DNA from: Lepraria neglecta
Taxonomy: Eukaryota; Ascomycota; Lecanoromycetes; Lecanorales; Stereocaulaceae
Assembly (NCBI GenBank): GCA_033220425.1
Contig: CM065650.1
Location: forward strand, 2,852,001 to 2,916,000
Length of the DNA stretch: 64,000 bases
Direction: 5' to 3'
The translations under genes were made by a program, and so were the position numbers. Below, piece after piece: positions 7,732 to 51,124 of this stretch. The notes beneath the pieces were generated by a model that was not told the origin of the DNA, did no database searches, and saw only the letters and a program-made list of their open reading frames with translations. The first letter of the stretch is position 1. Every line of letters starts with the position of its first letter.

Positions 7732-10002
7732 TTAGCTTTCTTGCAAATCAGCAACATTCGGATACCTCAAATCCGCCTCACCTTCCAAATGTTCCATCCA
7801 CTTCTTCAAAAACTCACTCCCCTTCCCCACCGTCTCACTATCCCCAATCGCACACAACTGCCTCTTCGGCCTCGTCATAGCAACATTCAATCTCCTCTCC
7901 TCCGCCAAAAACCCCACCTCCTTTGCCTCATTACTCCTCACCAAACTAACAACCACGGCCTCCTTCTCCCGCCCCTGAAACCCATCTACACTCCCCAGCT
8001 CTATCCCTGGGAACTGCTCTTTTAGCCCGAGGTCGTGAGACAGGTAGGATAGTTGCGCGTTGTAGGGCGTTATAACTGCTATGTCTTCTGCGTGCACGCC
8101 AGCTGCAATGAGGGCGCTGACGTGGGCTTTCACGAGGAGAGCTTCTGAGGGGTTGGATTTGCTGTCGTTTAACAATGACCCCTTAGTTGGAGTCTTGCCA
8201 TCTCCACCACTGGCCTCATCTGAGGCAGCGCTCTCTGGGAAATCGCCGCCCTGGGTATCGCAGAATATCAACGGCTCTCTGGTGTCGTCTGTATCTTCGA
8301 CCGGATAGAGAAGCGTAGTAAGTAACCGGCCAGCCACGCTCGGCGCAGCGATGAGAGCAGAATCGTACATGGCGTCAGAGGGGAACCGCATAATTTTCTC
8401 GTGCATGCGGTATTGAGTCGTGAGCATGTGTTTTATGCTGGGGCCATGGAGGGTCAGGAGGCGGGAGAAGAGTGTCGTTTCGAGGGTCAAGGTGTCTTTG
8501 GACTCGGACTTGGACTTGTCCTTTTCGGGCTTTGCTTTCGAGGGTGTCGATTTGACGGTAGGCGGTAACTGCAGATGATCCCCCGCCAGCACGAGTTTCT
8601 TCGCCACAAGAAGCGGAATCCAGCACTGGGCTTCAAGTGCTTGACTTGCTTCGTCGATGATCACAACATCAAACTCTTCATTGCGAAGTTGATAACCCCC
8701 AGCACCGTGCAGTGTCGCGAGAACAACTTTACTCCCCCCAACAAGCGTACTAACGCACTGCTTCTCCCTCTCCCGATACTCCTTCCTCAAATCCTTCATA
8801 TCAGTATAAATCGCCCTCCTCTCCCTCCCATTGCGCGTCTTCTTGATACTAGCTTGTTTCGCATCCATCTCCTTTCTCACATCTTTCACTATTGAGGCGG
8901 CTTCTGAGGTCTGGGTTAGGACCTCGAGGGAGTGGTTGAGGACGGAGGGGAGGAGGCGTGCTGGGTGGCCGAGACGGAGGATGGGGATTTTGTGGGGGGC
9001 GAGGCGCTCGACTATGTTGTCGACTGAGATGTTGGAGGGGCCGCAGACTAGGATTCGCATTTTGCGGTGGAGGAGTTGCAGGATTAGTTCTATGAGGGTG
9101 TAGGTCTTGCCGGTCTGAAGCATGTTAGCTCTCGCATCTTGGATCTGGGGTTGTAGAGACTTGCTCCAGGTGGTCCATGTATCAGCGCCACCTCCCTCGA
9201 AGCCAGCGCAAACTTCACAGCATCTCTCTGCGAGTTGTCGAGTGTCTCATCAAAGAACTTGACGTCGTCCTCCGAGGCTTGTTGCACCGGTGTAGGCGTG
9301 TCTAATCCGAACAATATCCTCGCAAGAGTCGTATACTCCTTCTCCTCCATCTTCTTCAGCCTCTCCATAGTCTGGTTCATCCTACCCAACTATAGTCAGC
9401 CCACCATCTTTCCCAAATCCCCACTGCTCGTAGTAGACTCACCTCTTGTAAGTAACATCATTAGCCAACTTAACCCTACCATCCCACCCCAACGTCAGCC
9501 TTCCCATCCCCTCCCAATCCCCAACAACACATACACAAAGTCGAAATCGGATACATACTCACACCCACAATCTCCCTCCCAGCCCGTCTTCCTCGCCCTT
9601 TCCCTCCCCAAGCGCAACTTGTAGTCCCTTATTGTTTACCCTGACCACCACCCCCTCGCAACCTCTATTCTCCATAGTAGCTTTCTCCTTCTTCCTCTCC
9701 CCACCCTTTGGCTGTTCCCCTACCCTCACAATATCCCCAACGCGTACACCATGCTCACCCACCACTCCATCATTTCCGATAGCATGATCTTGTTCCAGCT
9801 CTAGGACCGTCTTACCTCCTAAGCCTGTCCGCTGGGAGGAGATGACGAGGTTTGTGATTGCGAGGCCGGCTCGGGCGAGGGTAGTTGGGGAGGTGGAGGA
9901 GAGGAGGGTGGCGGTTGATGAGGTCTCGGCGGCTTGTTCGGTGGCGAGGAGGGTAAGTTGGGAATCGGCGAACGTAGAGGGATTGAGGGGCTTTGGAGCC
10001 AT
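7732..10002 (-). CDS. superfamily 1 DNA/RNA helicase, IGHMBP2 / Hcs1 type (690 residues)
   Basis: Exons are 10002..9563, 9475..9443, 9381..9165 and 9114..7732; phases close exactly. An N-terminal beta-barrel-like region (about residues 1-150) leads into VKLANDVTYKR and MNQTMERLKKMEE. The helicase core follows: Walker A HGPPGTGKT (residues 226-234), DEASQALEAQCWIPLL with LVLAGDHLQLPPT (Walker B and Q-loop), TQYRMHEKIMRFPSDAMYDS, VDGFQGREKEAVVVSLVRSN and RLNVAMTRPKRQLCAIGD. This is the order of the UPF1-like family, closest to the yeast DNA polymerase alpha-associated helicase A. Known members unwind DNA and RNA 5' to 3' using ATP. The intron inside the Walker A coding sequence (9115..9164) starts with GC rather than GT. 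The IGHMBP2 R3H domain is not evident in this short form. Confidence 0.93.
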
Positions 10003-37612: not shown

Positions 37613-38468
37613 CTATCGTTGAGTTGGGTGGCTTAGAAATAACTTGACCAAAGTGCAGATCTCAGCATACATTGATATGTCGTCTAATTTGCGTTCGCAG
37701 TCGACCTTGAGACGTCAGAACACCCTTGTATTCGCTTAAATGTTGATCTTTACCTTATGAAACTTTCCCTGGTCCTCATAATAGTGGATAATTTGTTGGC
37801 TTTCTTGTCTGAACCCCTGAATTCTCTGCTCGATTGTCCCAACATTACCATCCACCCTACCCGAGGGTTTTTCTCTGCCCTCCATGCGTTTCAGCATGGT
37901 CCGATTTGAGCTGTCGAAGCACAGGACACCTATGATCGTCCAGCCCTAGATCTCGTCAGCGGAAGAGTGGGAGCAAACGCGAAATCTCCTCCTTACACCA
38001 TTTCTGAACAACAATGCTTGGTCTAAACTTCTCGGGAAACCGTCCACGAAAAAGCGACTCTTGCCCTCCTGAATGTTTTAGATGAGATGCGCTTCCAACG
38101 TCTCCTGGACGATATCTACTGGAACAAGATCACCGGCGCTCATGATAGCCAGTATGTCGACTTGCCGTGCCGCTTGGATATTCACTGCCCGGTCCCCCAG
38201 GAGGTCACCGACAGAGACATGAACCGCGTCAAAATCTCTTGCCAGCTTCTTGCATTGCGTTCCTTTACCAACGCAGGGTCCTCCTGTATTGCTATGGTCA
38301 GCAGATTATACGGGGAGCCATAGGTGGTTGCCAGCTGGCAGACTCTGAGAGGCAACGCATACCAATAACGCAGATGATTTGCGCTTCACCATGCTCGCTG
38401 ATCGGAGGCGCGTCTGCCAGCACCTGATTGTCATGATTCGTCTGATTGTTTGGAGCCGCTGTGGTCAT
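37613..38468 (-). pseudogene. UMP-CMP kinase family gene next to viperin, with one in-frame stop
   Basis: Four exons can be read: 38468..38363, 38283..37999, 37929..37754 and 37705..37613, together 660 nt (219 codons plus stop), the usual kinase length. All three introns keep GT-AG ends and phase. Exon 1 starts MTTAAPNNQTNHDNQVLADA and runs into QIICVIG. Exon 2 opens with the P-loop GPCVGKGTQCKKLARDFDAV, then HVSVGDLLGD, GDLVPVDIVQETLEAHLI and EGKSRFFVDGFPRSLDQA (NMP-binding and GFPR motifs). Exon 3 has LCFDSSNRTMLKRMEGREK, SGRVDGNVGTIEQRI and IIHYYEDQGKFHK. One TAA (about 38060-38062) interrupts exon 2 between EAHLI and NIQEGK. The family phosphorylates UMP/CMP with ATP. The gene is divergent from viperin (454 bp between ATGs), so a CTP-supplying role like CMPK2 is the natural inference. 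Confidence 0.85.
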
Positions 38469-38922
38469 TTGGGAGCTCTCGTGGTGGGAGGAAACGCTGA
38501 GTGTTTGGTCTTGTAGAGGTGAGGACTGAGGATTGGCAAACCCAGTGGGTGGGCCCTTGCCCGGCTATATATCTCCTTTCGTCTGGACATGCTGCAAGAG
38601 TGAGACACTTCTCGGAGTTTCCGACCATCCTTCCAGACAATTCCAGGAGCCTTGCGTGACTCCTCGCACAAAGCCTCCACCTTTGCAGCCTACATCGTCT
38701 TTGTCTACTACATCAAAGCACACCCCTTAACAAGCTTCTGCAGCCTTCCAGAGAAGCAACCAAGTGAGGCATCAGCCTACAAGACAAAATTTGCGTATCT
38801 GCCTAGCGAACGCATCTTGGTGCTTTGTCTTAGCATTCAGCCCTTATCTACAACTAAGGGTCTTTACTTCCTCACCTCAAACATTGACTGCATTCCGCTT
38901 CTACCCCTTCCCTTCAGCCGAG
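38469..38922. promoter_or_regulatory. shared divergent promoter of the kinase and viperin genes
   Basis: The 454 bp between the two start codons must hold both promoters. A TATATAT element at about 38566-38572 lies roughly 100 bp upstream of the kinase ATG, a suitable TATA position for it, and 350 bp from the viperin ATG. The viperin side (38650-38920) is C/T-rich. Co-regulation is inferred from layout. Confidence 0.6.
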
Positions 38923-39909
38923 ATGTACATTTCGCTGTTCATCTTCAGCCTCTTCCAACTCAGGAAGCGTACCCAAGCTACCACCAATCACCCTCCCACC
39001 AGTCTTCATCCCAACAACCAACCACCAAAGAAAATACCCCTATCAGTAAACTACCACCTAACACGCCAATGCAACTACAAATGCGGCTTTTGCTTCCACA
39101 CCGTCACAACCTCCTACGTGCCCCCTCGAAGATGCCAAGAAAGTCATGTCCCTCGCATCCGCCGGAATGAAAAAAAATTAACTTCGCAGGCGGCGAACCC
39201 TTCATGAACCCCAAATTCCTTGGCCAGCTGGCCAAATACTGCAAGTTGACCCTCAAGGTAGAATCTGTCTCGGTCGTCACCAACGGCAGCAAAGTAACCA
39301 ACATCTGGCTCAAAGAATACGGAAAATACATCGACATCATGGCCGTTTCGTGGGATCGCTTCGACGAAGCCACAAACATCAAGATCGGACGAGGCTCAGG
39401 CAATCATCTAGAGCAATTCAAGCAGCTCGCATCAATGTGTGAGGCCCATGGCGTGATGTTCAAAGTCAATACCGTAATTAAAAAAATACAATTACGAAGA
39501 GGATATGAATGCTGCTATTGGGGCTATCAATCCGAAGCGATGGAAATGTTTCCAGGTGCTTATGGTGCCCGAGGAGAATGGTTCAGAAAAGACGTTGCGG
39601 GATGCGAGGGAGTTCTTGATCACGGACGAGCAGTGGAGGTATTTTTGTGAGAGGCATAAACACCACAAATGCTTCGTCCCTGAAGGCAACGATGTTATGG
39701 CGAGCTCATATCTCCTCCTCGACGAATACCTGTGCTTCCTCAATAAGTGAGTCAGGGAAAAGACGAAGAGCATCTTGGAGATTGGGGTTGAGGAGGCGTT
39801 GAAGGATATGTTTTGGGATGAGGAGGGGTTTAGGGAGAGGGGAGGGGTTTATGAGTGGAGTAAGCCGGAGGAGGAGGGGTATGATGCGTATCCTGAACTT
39901 GGCTTTTGA
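38923..39909 (+). pseudogene. RSAD2: viperin (RSAD2-type radical-SAM ddhCTP synthase), disrupted
   Basis: The start [20 protein letters not shown] is hydrophobic then basic, like the membrane-binding N-terminus of viperin. The radical-SAM core follows: [20 protein letters not shown] with CxxxCxxC for the [4Fe-4S] cluster (near 39070-39095), [60 protein letters not shown] and FKVNTVIKK. Then come INPKRWKCFQVLMVPEENGS, FLITDEQWRYFCERH, DEYLCFLN and SILEIGVEEALKDMFWDEEG with GGVYEWSKPE. Family knowledge: the enzyme turns CTP into ddhCTP, a chain terminator of viral RNA polymerases. The frame is broken by one extra base in each of three runs (C5 at 39121, A8 at 39170, A7 at 39480) and a TGA at 39748-39750 before the conserved tail. 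The tail lies 101 bp from the end of the PxpA gene. Confidence 0.93.
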
Positions 39910-40010: not shown

Positions 40011-40983
40011 TTATGAATACCCATGCTCCTTATTAAACCTATCACACACAGCCCTCGTAGTGCTAATAATCCCCACACAGCCCGGAGAATCAGAGTGACA
40101 GCATATCGATATCGGATAGTCCTTGACTGGCAACTGCACAGTACTCCCATCCGTAGCCGTAACCGACTCCGTCGTAAGCTGTTGCTCGACATGCTTTTCC
40201 ACGTCCTCGAGCTTCCAAGGCCTGCATTTGTATGAGCAAAGTCCACCCCTCACACAATTGGCGGGGACGTACTTCTTTATCCGATCAATAACTAACATGC
40301 CATCCTTACTATATTTGACATCACCATACATCTCCGCGCAGAACTCTACCCCCACACTCTCCGCCGCCCTCTCCATCTCCGTCCCCGCCAATCCAAAAAC
40401 CTTCACACCCTTCGGCACGCCCTTCATAACGGCCTCAGCCACCGCGAAATCCCGGCACATCATGCCGTAAAGCACGCCATGGGGCTTCACATGATTCAGC
40501 TCCACGCCCTCTTTATCTAGAAAGCCCTTCAATGCCCCCACTTGGTATACGGTATTTGCAGTATGCTCTTCGGGTGAGAGCTTCATCTCGCGGCGGCCGA
40601 AGCCTTGGAGGTCGGGGAGGCCGGGGTGGGCGCCTATGAGGACGTTGTGGGCTTTGCAGGCGCGGACTGTTTCTTGCATGATGAGGGGGTCGCCGGAGCT
40701 GATTGAGTTCCGCACATCAGCACTTCATGTCTGAACTTTTTTTTTGGGGTGATGAGACAGAATTTGCGGCTAAATGGAAGTTCTTGCTTTGGTGGATTGT
40801 CTTGTAGCTCGAGTTGGGATACTAGGAAGGGACAAAGAGCCTAGGAAAGACGCACTGGAAGCCGCAAGCTATGTTGGCGATGTCGATGAGAGATAGGAGC
40901 TCAGCGTCTGGGCCACATTTGAGGTTGCCGTAGCCTTCGCCGAGGTCGACATTCAGGAGGGCTTTGTGCTTGATGGGACCCAT
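40011..40983 (-). CDS. LamB/YcsF family protein, 5-oxoprolinase subunit A (PxpA) homologue
   Basis: Exons 40983..40856, 40698..40273 and 40221..40011 are proposed. The start MGPIKHKALLNVDLGEGYGN carries the family's NxDxGE metal-binding motif. It is followed by LIDIANIACGFH and, after the first intron, SGDPLIMQETVRACKAHNVL, IGAHPGLPDLQGFGRREM (AHPxxxD motif) and VKPHGVLYGMMCRDFAVAEA (VKPHGALY motif). The second intron (51 bp, GTACGT..TGCAG) has no frame change and is inferred because it removes a cysteine-rich stretch foreign to the family and restores RIKK-PWKLEDVEKHVEQQL. The end reads YPISICCHSDSPGCVGIIST. In bacteria PxpA hydrolyses 5-oxoproline with PxpB/PxpC and ATP. Here the divergently transcribed neighbour encodes the PxpC-like and PxpB-like domains, so a joint role is likely. 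Confidence 0.9.
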
Positions 40984-41278
40984 TGTTGACGTTTGGTGGT
41001 TGTATTGGGCTTTTGCAGGTCAATTGGTATGAGGAAGGAGCATTAAAGTGTATCCATCGAGATCAAGAAGTGTCAGAAGTATCGATCATCCCCGCTGACG
41101 TAGTTTCCACACCTTTTGCTTATCGTTTTCGTTGCATCCCCGCATCTTGGGGTGCCGTACCAGGAAGGCACTCGTGCCGCTCTTGGGCCATGGCGTGCCA
41201 ATCAGGGCTGCCTTGCTCTGGGACACCGATACCCCTCACGAGCTTTCGTATGCAATTGACAAAGTGGGTGGTCTCTAG
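40984..41278. promoter_or_regulatory. shared divergent promoter, PxpA homologue / biotin enzyme
   Basis: The 295 bp between the two ATGs suggests co-regulation. It contains GATA-core motifs on both strands (for example GATCAAG near 41061 and CGATACC near 41227), but I cannot tell functional sites from chance. Confidence 0.5.
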
Positions 41279-44200
41279 ATGAAGATGGAGCATCTCAAAA
41301 CACTGCTCATAGCTAATCGCGCGGAGATCGCCACTAGAATTCTCAAAACAGCAAGGTGTGTAGAAATAGCAGAGCTCCTTTCCTCCCGCAATCAGGCTTT
41401 GCCATTCACTGACTATTAGGTTCTAGGAAATTGGGCATTCGGACCATTGCAATATACACGGAGCCTGATGCAGCTTCTACGCATGTATCTGAAGCAGATG
41501 TGGCGGTTCTGCTTCCTGGGAGCCCTGCTAAAGCCTACATCGATGGGTATGCAAGCCCAAGTAGAAGCCCGATCCCGCGCCATGTTTTACTTGCAATGTC
41601 TTTGCTTTACCATCTATCACTGAACGCCAATTGACCATCTGAGAAGTCATTTCTTCATGTTCTGATACTCTACCTTCGTTGGATACTGTCGTGATAGTGT
41701 CCATTGCTCGTTTCGTTTCCCAATATTTCTGCAGTTTCCAATTCAACATCTGATAATATTTCGCACATACTAGAGATGAGATTATTAGGATAGCCAAGGA
41801 GCACAAAGCTGATGCTGTTATACCCGGCTACGGCTTCCTATCCGAGAATGCCGACTTCGCCCGGGACGTGGCCGCTGCTGGCATGGCTTGGGTCGGACCC
41901 AGCCCTGAAAGCATTGAGGCTTTCGGCATCAAGCATACAGCTAGGGAACTTGCACTGAAGGCTGGAGTACCTATAGTACCAGGCACGCAAGGGCTAATTG
42001 CAAGCGAAGAAGATGCTGTCAAAGAAAGCGGGAAGCTAGGCTTTCCAGTCATGCTGAAGGCCACAGCTGGTGGAGGCGGGATGGGACTTTCCATAGCCCA
42101 CAACGCCGAAGAAGTCAAAAACTCTTTTGCCACCGTGAAGTCTCGAGGCGAAAATCTATTCAAGAACTCTGGCATGTTCATTGAGCGTTTCTACCCTGAC
42201 AGCCACCATATTGAGGTGCAAGTCTTTGGCAATGGGGTGGGGAATGCGATTCACTTCGGCGAACGAGAGTGTTCTATCCAGCGAAGGCACCAGAAAGTTA
42301 TTGAAGAGTGTCCAAGCCCATTCGTCGTATCGCACTTGCGTAAGCGTTCCGATCAATTTTTCCAAAAAAAGCTGCTTATCTCCCTTACAGACCTCAGAGA
42401 AGGGCTTTGCTCAGCAGCCGTTCGACTAGCTGAATCCATCAAGTATGGTTCAGCTGGAACAGTTGAGTACCTGGTTGACGACAAAACTGGAAATTTCTTC
42501 TTTCTCGAGATGAACACGCGACTGCAAGTCGAGCATGGTATCACAGAGCTCTGCTACGACGTGGACCTCGTGCGACTAATGCTGAGACAAGCGGACGCTC
42601 AACTAGCAGGTAAAGGCGGCATAGGTGGCAAAGAGCTTGAAGCACTGCAACCTAAGGAGCCGAAAGGTGCTGCAATAGAAGCTCGAGTGTATGCTGAGAA
42701 TCCTGCACGAGACTACGCTCCATCTCCCGGGACCTTACAGATAGTAGATTGGGCAGAAACAGATGATGGGAGAATTGACACTTGGGTCCACACTGGTACC
42801 GTTGTCTCATCATACTACGACCCGCTTCTTGCGAAAGTCATGGTGCATAGACCTTCAAGAGACCAGAGTATCAAAGCGATGTCTGAGACACTGTCTAAAT
42901 CTCGAATCTGTGGACCACCCACCAATCTGGACTTCCTTGTCGGTATTGTTGAAGACCATCAATTCGCGACTGGAGTCACAATGACAAATTTCCTCACCGA
43001 CTTCAAATATTCGCCGACTGCAATAGACGTCATCTCAGGTGGAGCTTACACACAAGTGCAGGACTATCCCGGACGACCAACTATGGGTAGGGGTTTCCCT
43101 CACTCTGGACCGATGGATCCACTAGCCTTTCAGATTGCCAATCTTCTGGTTGGCAACCCACGCGGTACAGCTGGTCTTGAGTGTACGCTTGATGGGCCCG
43201 AGCTTCTCTTCCTAGGCGCTGCAGTCGTTTCAATATGCGGAGCTCCAATGGAAACAAAGCTCGATGGCAAGCCTGTGTCGATGTGGACAAGGCTCCAAAT
43301 CAGCGCTGGACAGAAATTAAAGATCGGTAAAACGACAGGTGGCGGGTGCAGGTCCTACCTTGCGATCTATGGCGGACTTCCCAGCGTCGCCGAATGGTTT
43401 GGATCCAAAGCGACATCTCCTGGTGTCGCAGTTGGTGGCTATCAAGGGAGGCAACTGGCTGCAGGGGACCTACTCGCAATCACAAGAGATGCACCTGAAT
43501 TTGGGCTCGAGCCATTGGCTTTGCCGGAGAGTATCATCCCTCGATATCCAAGTCACTGGGACATATATGCAATGGTGGGACCTTATGAAGAGGGCTATCT
43601 GCTCCCAGAGGATGTTGAAATGATCTATGAGACTAAATGGCAGATCTCTCATAATGCGGCAAGGGGTGGTATTCGTCTCATTGGACCGAAGCCCAAGTGG
43701 GCTCGCCCTGATGGTGGCGAAGGAGGAGCTCATCCGTCCAATGTCGTCGAGTACGGTTATCCAGTAGGAGCATTGAACTGGACAGGAGACGACCCATGTA
43801 TCTTCCCCATCGACTGTCCCGATTTTGGTGGTTTCGTATCAAGCACGACTATCATCAAAGCTGATTACTGGAGGCTTGGACAAATGAAAGCCGGAAACAC
43901 GATGCAGTACAAGAAGGTGGCACTCGAGGATGCACTAGCATTGCGAATGCGGGTAAATGAATTCATCTGGAGCATAGAAAAAGCATGCTTAGGAAACGGC
44001 AATCTCAGCGCTATCGAACCCTTGGATTATACAACATTGCCCCCTTCTGCCCAATCCGGATACCACGGCAAGGCAGTAGTCCAGCATATTGAAGCCAAAG
44101 GGAACCAGCCTCAGACTTTCTACAGACAGGTACGTTTTCTCCAAGAGCTATTGGCCTTGGGTCTCTCCTCACACTGAACAGGGCGGCGACGACTACATCC

Positions 44201-45518
44201 TCGTAGAGTATGGAGACGGTACTTTCAATTTGAATCATCGATGTCGAGTCACTGCCCTCATCAAAGCTTTGAAAGAGTCGAAGACTAGTATATCATTTTC
44301 AAATGGACTGATCAATACTGTCGGATGTTGCACGTGTAAGTCCTGGTAATGCAGACCCCAAAGCGGAATTTCTGACCCAACCCTTCTAGCCCTCCTGATC
44401 TACTACGATGGCACCAAAATTCCTCAAAGCAAGTTCATCTCCTATCTAGTGGACATAGAAGCTCAGCTTGGCGATCTCAGCCAGTCGAAAGTGCCTAGTC
44501 GTATCTTCAAGCTTCCAATCGCCTTCGACCACGCCAAAGAAAAGAATGCTATAAAACGCTATATGGAAACTCAACGTCCCTACGCTTCTTACCTACCAGA
44601 CAACTTGGGATTTGTAGCGAAAAACAACGGCTTCAAACGCAAAGATCTTGTGAGAATCCTCACACAGAGCAAGCTCATAACTGTCTCTGTCGGCTTCTTC
44701 GCTGCACTTCCGCTATGCTTGCCCGTTGATCCGCGAGAGAGAATGAATTGTCCCAAAGTGCGTCCCGCCGCTATGTTCTTCAAATACACTGGTATTCTAC
44801 TGACCTTCTGCTAACCCAGATGAACCCATCACGTGTCTTCACACCAGAAGGGCAAGTCTCCTGGGGCGGCTCCTGCATGGCTCTCTATAACGTCGAATCT
44901 CCCGGCGGTTACCAACTTACAGGTCTCACCATTCCCGGCTGCGACTACCTCGGGTCCAAGAAACACTACTCCCTGTCCCGCCCCTGGCTTTTCGAAGACT
45001 TCGACCAATTGACCTACTATGAAGTAGACGAGGCAGAATACGAGCGCCAACTAGCCCTTTTCCACAGCGGGCGGTATGAGTATCAGATTGAGGAAACGGT
45101 GTTCGATATGGCTGAGCACAATAAGCTACTCGAAGATACGAAAGACGAAGTAGCTGCAATCAGACAGAAACAGAAGCGCGCCCAGGACGAAATGCAAAAA
45201 TTAGAGGACGAGCTAATGGCCAAATGGACGGAGGAGAAAGCAGCGGGAAAGATTCCAATGGACAAAGTTGAAGCGTTGCTCAACGATCCAGGTATCGAAA
45301 AGATTAGCAGCCCGCTGAACGCTAACGTGTGGAAGGTCGTTGCCGAAGAAGGCCAAGAGATCAAAGAGGGAGATGAAGTCGCGATCCTTGAGGCCATGAA
45401 GTTAGAAATCTCCGTAAGGGCAGAAGAAGGGATGAAAGGCAAGTTAGAGAAGCTGCTTGTCAGACCAGGTGATGTGGTCAATGCTGGAGATCCGCTCGTG
45501 CTTGTCAGGAAGGGATGA
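41279..45518 (+). CDS. urea-carboxylase-like biotin enzyme: biotin carboxylase, KipA, KipI, biotin carrier (1,240 residues)
   Basis: Exons are 41279..41355, 41427..41546, 41774..42339, 42391..44129, 44182..44335, 44390..44757 and 44820..45518 (3,723 nt, in phase). Residues 1-455 are biotin carboxylase: EHLKTLLIANRAEIATRILK, AVIPGYGFLSENADF, KATAGGGGMGLS (ATP-grasp loop), FGERECSIQRRHQKVIEECP, EMNTRLQVEHGITE. From about 467 is the KipA/AHS2 (PxpC-like) domain: QDYPGRPTMGRGFPHSGPMD. At about 820-1060 is KipI/AHS1 (PxpB-like): YILVEYGDGTFNLNHRCRVT. The C-terminus is a biotin carrier with EAMKLEI, biotin on Lys1202. There is no amidase, so it is not a Dur1,2 fusion. Fungal proteins of this build are usually named urea carboxylase, but adjacency to PxpA makes 5-oxoproline or a guanidine-type substrate possible. 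The 227-bp second intron is the longest in the gene. Confidence 0.93.
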
Positions 45519-49966: not shown

Positions 49967-51124
49967 TCAAGCATCCATCGAAGCCGCGATATCTTCACTA
50001 ACGCCACGCACCGAACTCCCGCTGCGCCCTCTTTCCTTACAAGGACTCTCACTCCCAGAATCGCTGTCTGAGCTCGCTGACGGCACGAACCTCGGTTCAT
50101 CTCCCTCGTCCAGAATATCAGCCTCTTCAACATTCTCCTCATCCCACTCACCACTGACATCCTCATCCTCATCACCCACCCATTCTGCCTCACCGGCTCG
50201 ATCTCCAAGCCAGTATCTCGCTCGTTTCTTGCTCGTTTCTTCGTCTATGCTCCACGTCCCGCTAGCAGGTCGTTTCGCCTTGACTGGCGTTTTCTGGGGA
50301 GGACTGTTTCCAATGATACTGAGACCACGGAGGTAGATGTAGCAGACTCGCTTCTTGGTCTTGTTGAAGAAGAAGTAGTTCATGGACCACAAAGCACCTT
50401 CCTCGCCGTCGTAAGGGTCTTCCTCGGGCGAGTAGCAGTACATGCTGCATTCTTTAAGGCTCATCTCGTTATCGATAAGACGCCACATGCGCGGGTTCCA
50501 CTTCTCACTTCCATGAGGGGTTTGCGGTACGGTCGATGGAACGGAGTTCGACCAGTGCGGTGGTTGCTCAAGCATAGAGCTAGAGAATCTAGGGCGCAAA
50601 TTGTAGAGCGTAGTGTCGAGCGTGTTCATCACCTTCTTGAGACTCTTCTCGCGGCGGAAGTCGGCGGGTCGGAGGAGGTGGGAGAAGTCGTAGTCTGGAT
50701 GGCTGGCATTTAGTGTTGCAATCAAGTAAGCAAACGTCCGGCGGCTTGAGATCTGGCTAAGTGGCCCGAAAGGACTCGCTCGGGAAAGGTTGAGAGCCGA
50801 ACCAGCTGTTGTAGCCTGATGCGCAGAGAGACTGGCGGATAGGGTGAGTAGGGATGCATACTGCGTTTCTAGAGAGTTTTCGATATTCTTGTAGAGCTTC
50901 TTGTCCGCCCCCGCAGCTTTCGTGGTGTAGAGGTCGCAGCCGCCGATGACATGGCAGTCCGCTGTGTCGAAGTTGAGGGCATTCGTAACATCGTCGAAAT
51001 CGCGGAGAGGGAGGTACTAAGGATACAGGTCAGCTGACGTAATTTGACAAATGAAGAGGTTCGCCTGCGCCGTCTGAGAGGACTAGACAAGGGTCATGAC
51101 TTCGTGTAGTGAATTCACCTTCAT
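49967..51124 (-). CDS. MAF1: Maf1, RNA polymerase III repressor (351 residues)
   Basis: The first exon is only six bases, ATG-AAG (51124..51119). A 102-bp intron follows and the second exon is 51016..49967. The joined start MKYLPLRDFDDVTNALNFDT matches Maf1. It continues DCHVIGGCDLYTTKAAGADK, FAYLIATLNASHPDYDFSHL, LRPADFRREKSLKKVMNTLD and, in the conserved C box, WNPRMWRLIDNEMSLKECSM with YCYSPEEDPYDGEEGALWSM, then NKTKKRVCYIYLRGLSIIG. A serine-rich loop lies in the middle and the tail is acidic and serine-rich. Maf1 is dephosphorylated under stress, enters the nucleus and binds Pol III to block tRNA and 5S transcription, downstream of TORC1. Confidence 0.95.

Follow-up and report, generated by a model that had tools for sequence, protein, structure and literature searches.

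The 64,000-nucleotide stretch of Lepraria neglecta DNA analyzed here (the window) carries a viperin gene and an adenylate/UMP-CMP-type kinase gene in divergent orientation. Both genes are broken, and they very probably form a pair of pseudogenes; the window would therefore hold the decayed version of a gene pair that in fungi consists of viperin and a nucleotide kinase. The sequence-only reading of this region had flagged it as a candidate antiviral module, a tempting claim which has to be corrected since the module in its present state cannot function. A possible scenario, which we put forward tentatively, is that ascomycetes built their own viperin partner kinase: it belongs to an ADK clade apart from both URA6 and CMPK2 and would have been a neighbor of viperin already before Pezizomycetes and Lecanoromycetes separated; in lichen fungi, the two genes would have been duplicated jointly, and in the Lepraria lineage one pair after the other would now be disappearing.

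Results

Lesions in the viperin and kinase genes of the window

The pair occupies C5:2889613-2891909, and its features are listed in Table 1. The motifs CNYKCGFC, GGEPF, NTV, RWKCFQ and DEYLCFLN are located on the plus strand, and all motifs that mark membership in the viperin family (the CxxxCxxC [4Fe-4S] motif, GGEPF and the C-terminal blocks) were found across pieces a to e. For all three pieces that were scanned, the NCBIfam viperin model TIGR04278 ranked first among the families, with E-values of 2.1e-16 (frame piece 38731-39204), 2.5e-34 (39171-39647) and 1.9e-30 (39478-39747). The curated TIGR04278 score of 450 bits was not reached; even the viperin of Lepraria finkii scores 386.8, and this cut-off may not fit fungal viperins. 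The L. finkii protein clears the cut-off of 180 set for the broader model NF038283 with a score of 244.7. In the viperin tree, the window copy groups with P0028, P0017 and P0022 (SH-aLRT 99).

The earlier assignment to viperin thus holds with respect to motifs and TIGR04278 matches and fails with respect to the reading frame: a full-length open frame was not found in the window viperin, which is interrupted by three frame breaks and one in-frame TGA. In an alignment of 120 viperins, the window copy is altered at 3 of 86 near-invariant columns and its relatives P0028, P0022 and P0017 at none; the 119 other viperins have a median of 0 altered columns and a maximum of 4, reached by P0037 and P0023. 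Piece c carries C->W and S->R exchanges at the near-invariant CDSF motif. Only 3 of the 63 differences between the window viperin and P0028 are found at near-invariant columns; judged by substitutions alone, the gene appears mostly constrained.

Table 1. Features of the viperin-kinase pair in the window.
Feature	Position	Strand	Evidence
Kinase exon 4: VDCER block and terminal stop	37613..37705	-	gene model
Kinase exon 3: RVDGN in place of the R-D-D lid motif (one Asp lost)	37754..37945	-	gene model
Kinase exon 2: GFPR kept; in-frame TAA 38080-38078	37997..38283	-	gene model, profile matches
Kinase exon 1	38363..38468	-	gene model
Region of 454 bases separating the divergent start codons; putative shared promoter	38469..38922	.	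gene coordinates
Viperin (RSAD2/SAND-type radical SAM) pseudogene, whole span	38923..39909	+	TIGR04278 matches, 120-viperin alignment, tree
Piece a: N-terminus, CNYKCGFC [4Fe-4S] motif, then frame break at C run 39121-39125	38923..39124	+	sequence, translation
Piece b (LEDAKK...), then frame break at A run 39170-39177	39125..39172	+	sequence, translation
Piece c: GGEPF and NTV blocks, then frame break at A run 39480-39486	39171..39485	+	alignment, TIGR04278
Piece d: RWKCFQ and DEYLCFLN blocks, up to the in-frame TGA 39748-39750	39484..39747	+	sequence, translation, TIGR04278
Piece e: viperin C-terminus past the in-frame stop; terminal TGA 39907-39909	39751..39909	+	sequence, translation

The partner gene is an adenylate/UMP-CMP-type kinase gene with four exons on the minus strand (38468-37613). 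Its structure, its end at 37613 and the distance of 454 bases between the divergent start codons were confirmed as described earlier. The Pfam ADK model PF00406 matches the exon 2 piece with 48.3 bits, over the cut-off, and the exon 3 piece with 19.7, under the cut-off of 26.8; judged by its motifs and profile matches, the window kinase is by descent a member of the UMP-CMP kinase family (TIGR01359/PF00406). The P-loop, GDLL and GFPR motifs on which this assignment had been based are recognizable; from the full set of UMP-CMP kinase motifs (P-loop GGPGxGKGTQ, GDLLR, GFPR and R-DD), only GFPR is kept. The P-loop in exon 2 reads GGPCVGKGT, with loss of a Gly and with its first G split over the exon 1/2 junction. 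GDLL is followed by G (GDLLG) at a position where Arg has a frequency of about 1.00 in an alignment of 174 rows. In this alignment, 4 of 39 near-invariant columns are altered in the window kinase (the P-loop Gly, the Leu before DGFPR, the GDLLR Arg and an Asp of R-DD), and the nine other kinase rows compared with it have 0 to 3 substitutions when gaps are disregarded. Furthermore, exon 2 contains an in-frame TAA. A 42-base in-frame candidate cryptic intron was seen by eye, and its removal could in principle eliminate this stop; splicing out the stretch would also delete residues which are coding in the relatives.

In total, the window pair shows three frame breaks, one in-frame TGA in the viperin gene and one in-frame TAA in the kinase gene. 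Since both genes are broken, a working antiviral module in the window is unsupported.

Beside the viperin gene, a LamB/YcsF gene (minus strand) and a biotin carboxylase/carboxyltransferase A-B/biotin-lipoyl gene (plus strand) occupy positions 40014-45515, a group which we take to be a 5-oxoprolinase or urea-amidolyase-like cluster. Open frames for AAA_11/AAA_12 (7735-9246, minus strand) and Maf1 (49970-51016, minus strand) are ordinary neighbors in the window.

Sequencing errors and the origin of the stops

Homopolymers are a classic site of sequencing error, and all three viperin frame breaks fall at homopolymers. The pair could accordingly be functional and form a live two-gene ddhNTP module if these breaks, at runs of C5, A8 and A7, were assembly errors; that most viperin substitutions avoid near-invariant columns would fit as well. 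We regard such an explanation as highly improbable, because the TGA and the TAA arose by substitution and not by indels, as did the changes of the P-loop Gly, the GDLLR Arg and the lid Asp. Two of the lesions are thus in-frame stops caused by substitution, and catalytic residues were also changed by substitution, which makes sequencing error unlikely.

HSP70 genes of the same assembly were used as a control. The four longest single-frame matches (598, 572, 396 and 533 model positions) are free of stops, and these clean frames likewise argue against sequencing error. Altogether, 18 of 23 HSP70 matches are stop-free and five contain stops; in the one of these five that was examined (C3:1259745-1260731), both stops are located in intron-like stretches. 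A homopolymer control yielded 19 runs of five or more bases in 7,758 bases of open frames; it is a weak control, as the stretches had been chosen as open frames or stop-free matches, and the HSP70 control is fairer. RIP as the source of the stops was rejected, the pair region having a TpA/ApT ratio of 0.61 and a (CpA+TpG)/(ApC+GpT) ratio of 1.38, like the rest of the window.

A second viperin-kinase pair in the genome

Apart from the presumed pseudogenes of the window, the L. neglecta genome (42 Mb, 11 contigs) contains one further viperin locus: a search with the viperin model gave five matches in two places only, the window and contig C2. The C2 viperin (C2:1369440-1370477; best match to TIGR04278, 319.9) is located head to head with a kinase gene (L005). 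It has an open frame of 325 codons with a single canonical intron of 60 bases, located at CG|FC and absent from the window viperin, retains the [4Fe-4S] and GGEPF motifs, and is 90% identical to L. finkii P0001. With its open frame, the C2 viperin could be active.

The C2 viperin departs from the consensus at 6 of 86 near-invariant columns, L. finkii at none. These departures, five substitutions and one deletion of the residue two before AGGEPF, exceed the maximum of 4 among the 119 other viperins. Comparison with L. finkii revealed 22 differences in 298 scored columns, 17 of them on the C2 lineage. Near-invariant columns take 6 of these 17 changes, with a neutral expectation of 4.9, and none of the five changes of L. 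finkii itself. In 27 pairs of other viperins at similar identity, 23 of 726 differences are located at near-invariant columns, and six of these 23 come from a single pair, P0011/P0023, which belongs to the small clade of C2 and L. finkii. In the C2 kinase, the reading frame breaks immediately ahead of the RIDDN motif; in the 174-row alignment, this kinase shows three near-invariant substitutions and a gap, one of the three being common to L. finkii.

From these changes we infer that the C2 pair looks unconstrained and close to dying. Its viperin might instead be active and evolving fast in an arms race, a reading to which the open frame, the canonical intron and the retained motifs lend some weight. 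We consider this adaptive explanation rather unlikely, since the changes strike near-invariant columns at the unconstrained rate, the residue two before AGGEPF was lost and the partner kinase is broken in frame. With the window pair dead and the C2 pair losing constraint, L. neglecta would be losing, or would already have lost, its viperin-kinase module. In the metagenomic viperin P0023, which the tree places close to those of C2 and L. finkii, 4 of 79 near-invariant columns are altered; this hints at a wider decay of viperin in the C2/L. finkii lineage.

The viperins of the window and C2 fall into different lichen subclades, and so do their kinases; the two pairs therefore appear to be old paralogs, and the separate clades fit an old duplication of the whole viperin-kinase pair. 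A recent segmental duplication from C2 to the contig of the window (C5) was rejected on the same grounds. Lasallia pustulata also has two viperin entries (P0050 and P0057), which stem from different contigs and fall into different regions of the tree; one of the two lies on a contig with a kinase of the linked type.

Linkage of viperin and kinase in other fungi

The best 120 of 2,440 viperin clusters were compared with the best 120 of 7,548 kinase clusters (119 with contig data); P0236 and P0243, for which contig data are missing, were excluded. A viperin and a kinase were called linked when the longest contigs of their clusters had identical length, which was taken to mean one contig. At least 10 of the 120 listed viperin clusters matched one of the 119 listed kinase clusters, and source or species agreed in all 10 matched pairs. 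When lengths were shifted by 1 to 20 bases either way, 8 matches were obtained over 40 shifts, i.e. 0.2 per shift. Among 97 further kinases from a second search, none matched the contig of a listed viperin.

Consecutive locus tags were found in two pairs (ABVK25_002429/002430 in L. finkii and M1813_007244/007245 in Trichoglossum hirsutum), and in four linked pairs the shared contig measures 3.1, 6.6, 9.5 or 11.9 kb. In the remaining cases (Lasallia, Wilcoxina and two metagenomic sequences of 27 and 55 kb), linkage means a common contig only. Head-to-head orientation was seen in both pairs of the L. neglecta genome. The named species with linked pairs cover Lecanoromycetes, Geoglossomycetes and Pezizomycetes. 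On this contig evidence, linkage of viperin and kinase is real beyond the L. neglecta genome. What survives of the proposed two-gene module is consequently the recurring linkage, seen in the second pair and far above the shifted control; the window copy itself is broken. Viperin and kinase might also be adjacent by chance and functionally unrelated, the repeats being inherited synteny. This is improbable given that the linkage extends over three classes of Pezizomycotina, that the kinases form a clade of their own and that two paralogous pairs were kept together within one genome.

Identity of the partner kinase

An unrooted tree of 64 kinase rows was calculated, including 32 URA6 rows, among them the URA6 of L. 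neglecta itself (C7:557918-558617), a separate gene with clean exons. Eleven rows were labeled as linked, namely nine of the ten matched kinases and the two of the L. neglecta genome; the tenth matched kinase, P0121 of L. finkii, entered the trees among the unlabeled 'near' rows and sits beside the C2 kinase. URA6 rows and linked rows are found on opposite sides of a branch with an SH-aLRT of 99. In a second, rooted tree, to which four distant adenylate kinases were added and from which near_P0169 and the C2:3652585 paralog were left out, the linked rows stay together (SH-aLRT 94), and two of the added adenylate kinases fall among the URA6 rows. The window kinase groups with P0141 of Stereocaulon virgatum, with support values of 81 and 86 in these trees. 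Since many of the linked rows consist of short exon fragments on long branches, the branching order among them is uncertain. An ordinary housekeeping UMP-CMP kinase present as the sole copy, the outcome that would have spoken against a dedicated partner, is not what was found: the linked kinases branch apart from URA6, and the genome has a separate, intact URA6.

Two further kinase-like loci were observed. A UMP-CMP-kinase-like paralog at C2:3652585-3653198 (L012) has a very long branch (1.49) and no adjoining viperin match, and a short ADK-like match at C1:4658748-4659050 (L016) with the altered P-loop GATGVGKRTQC is possibly another decayed kinase.

NCBIfam scores are split with respect to a preference of the linked kinases for CMP/UMP or AMP. 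P0145 scores higher with TIGR01359 (184.8) than with TIGR01360 (166.9), and P0141, the row nearest to the window kinase, gives 136.1 and 139.7, respectively; all four values are under the curated cut-offs. The URA6 row P0227 passes TIGR01359 at 236.2. The thymidylate-kinase domain PF02223, which is typical of CMPK2, was not detected at E 0.001 in P0141 and P0123, and reached a sub-threshold score of 20.8 of 27 in P0145. PF02223 also appears in the precomputed domain lists of many URA6-type rows; as judged from these profiles, it is a weak cross-match within the kinase superfamily.

CMPK2 carries a thymidylate-kinase domain (PMC9132166). Since the fungal partner has the ADK domain PF00406 instead, it is not an orthologue of CMPK2, and homology to the vertebrate RSAD2/CMPK2 pair finds no support. 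The pairing looks independently assembled, because the linked kinases belong to the ADK family and not to the thymidylate-kinase family of CMPK2; the sequence-only reading had left open whether the module was conserved or re-formed outside animals, and with different kinase families 're-formed' fits better.

Discussion

Family chemistry leads us to propose a substrate and an antiviral role for the fungal pair. In intact pairs of Pezizomycotina, the ADK-family kinase most likely would phosphorylate CMP/UMP and thereby feed CTP/UTP to viperin, which would dehydrate them to ddhCTP/ddhUTP; these products would act as chain terminators for viral RNA polymerases. As regards fungi, both the kinase step and an antiviral function are inferred here. 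If the scenario of a separate ascomycete partner kinase were true, the same two steps leading to ddhNTP would have been brought together by convergence, and a natural loss series would be at hand for testing the target of the defence. With a kinase clade of its own linked to fungal viperin, nucleotide supply would become a recurrent and convergent companion of viperin. Lichen fungi in which one pair or both have been lost could then serve as natural knock-outs to find out what threat the viperins of fungi counter.

Shomar et al. 2024 reportedly described eukaryotic viperins as genetically linked with nucleotide kinases. A literature search by title and start of abstract, with subscription papers mostly outside its coverage, found no paper on a fungal viperin-kinase pair. 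Linkage of viperin and kinase is already known in general, and the L. neglecta pair adds to a known kind of module.

Fungal URA6, the bifunctional uridylate/adenylate kinase, resembles the linked kinases in PF00406 family and length, but URA6 rows form their own group in the 64-row tree and URA6 is a separate gene here. The viperin/SAND protein of Thielavia terrestris and the solved viperins (PDB 9dfu, 7n7i and 6b4c) belong to the same family as the fungal viperins studied here, and L. finkii viperin matches 9dfu at an E-value of 5.9e-115. The T. terrestris enzyme acts on CTP and UTP (PMC9642334); as far as the available descriptions of it and of the PDB viperins go, they are single enzymes for which a kinase partner is not mentioned. 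Chicken viperin adjoins a nucleoside monophosphate kinase gene in opposite direction, an arrangement said to resemble that in humans (PMC9132166). Vertebrate RSAD2/CMPK2, so described, and the fungal pair thus both place viperin beside an opposite-facing nucleotide kinase; however, the vertebrate kinase is not orthologous to the fungal ADK partner, and the window copy is dead. In bacteria, 15% of viperin genes have a kinase neighbor, and the partner kinase is described as similar to CMPK2 (PMC11249213). Linkage is therefore common to the bacterial and the fungal genes, whereas the fungal partner, as compared to this description, is ADK-like and, in L. neglecta, divergently oriented.
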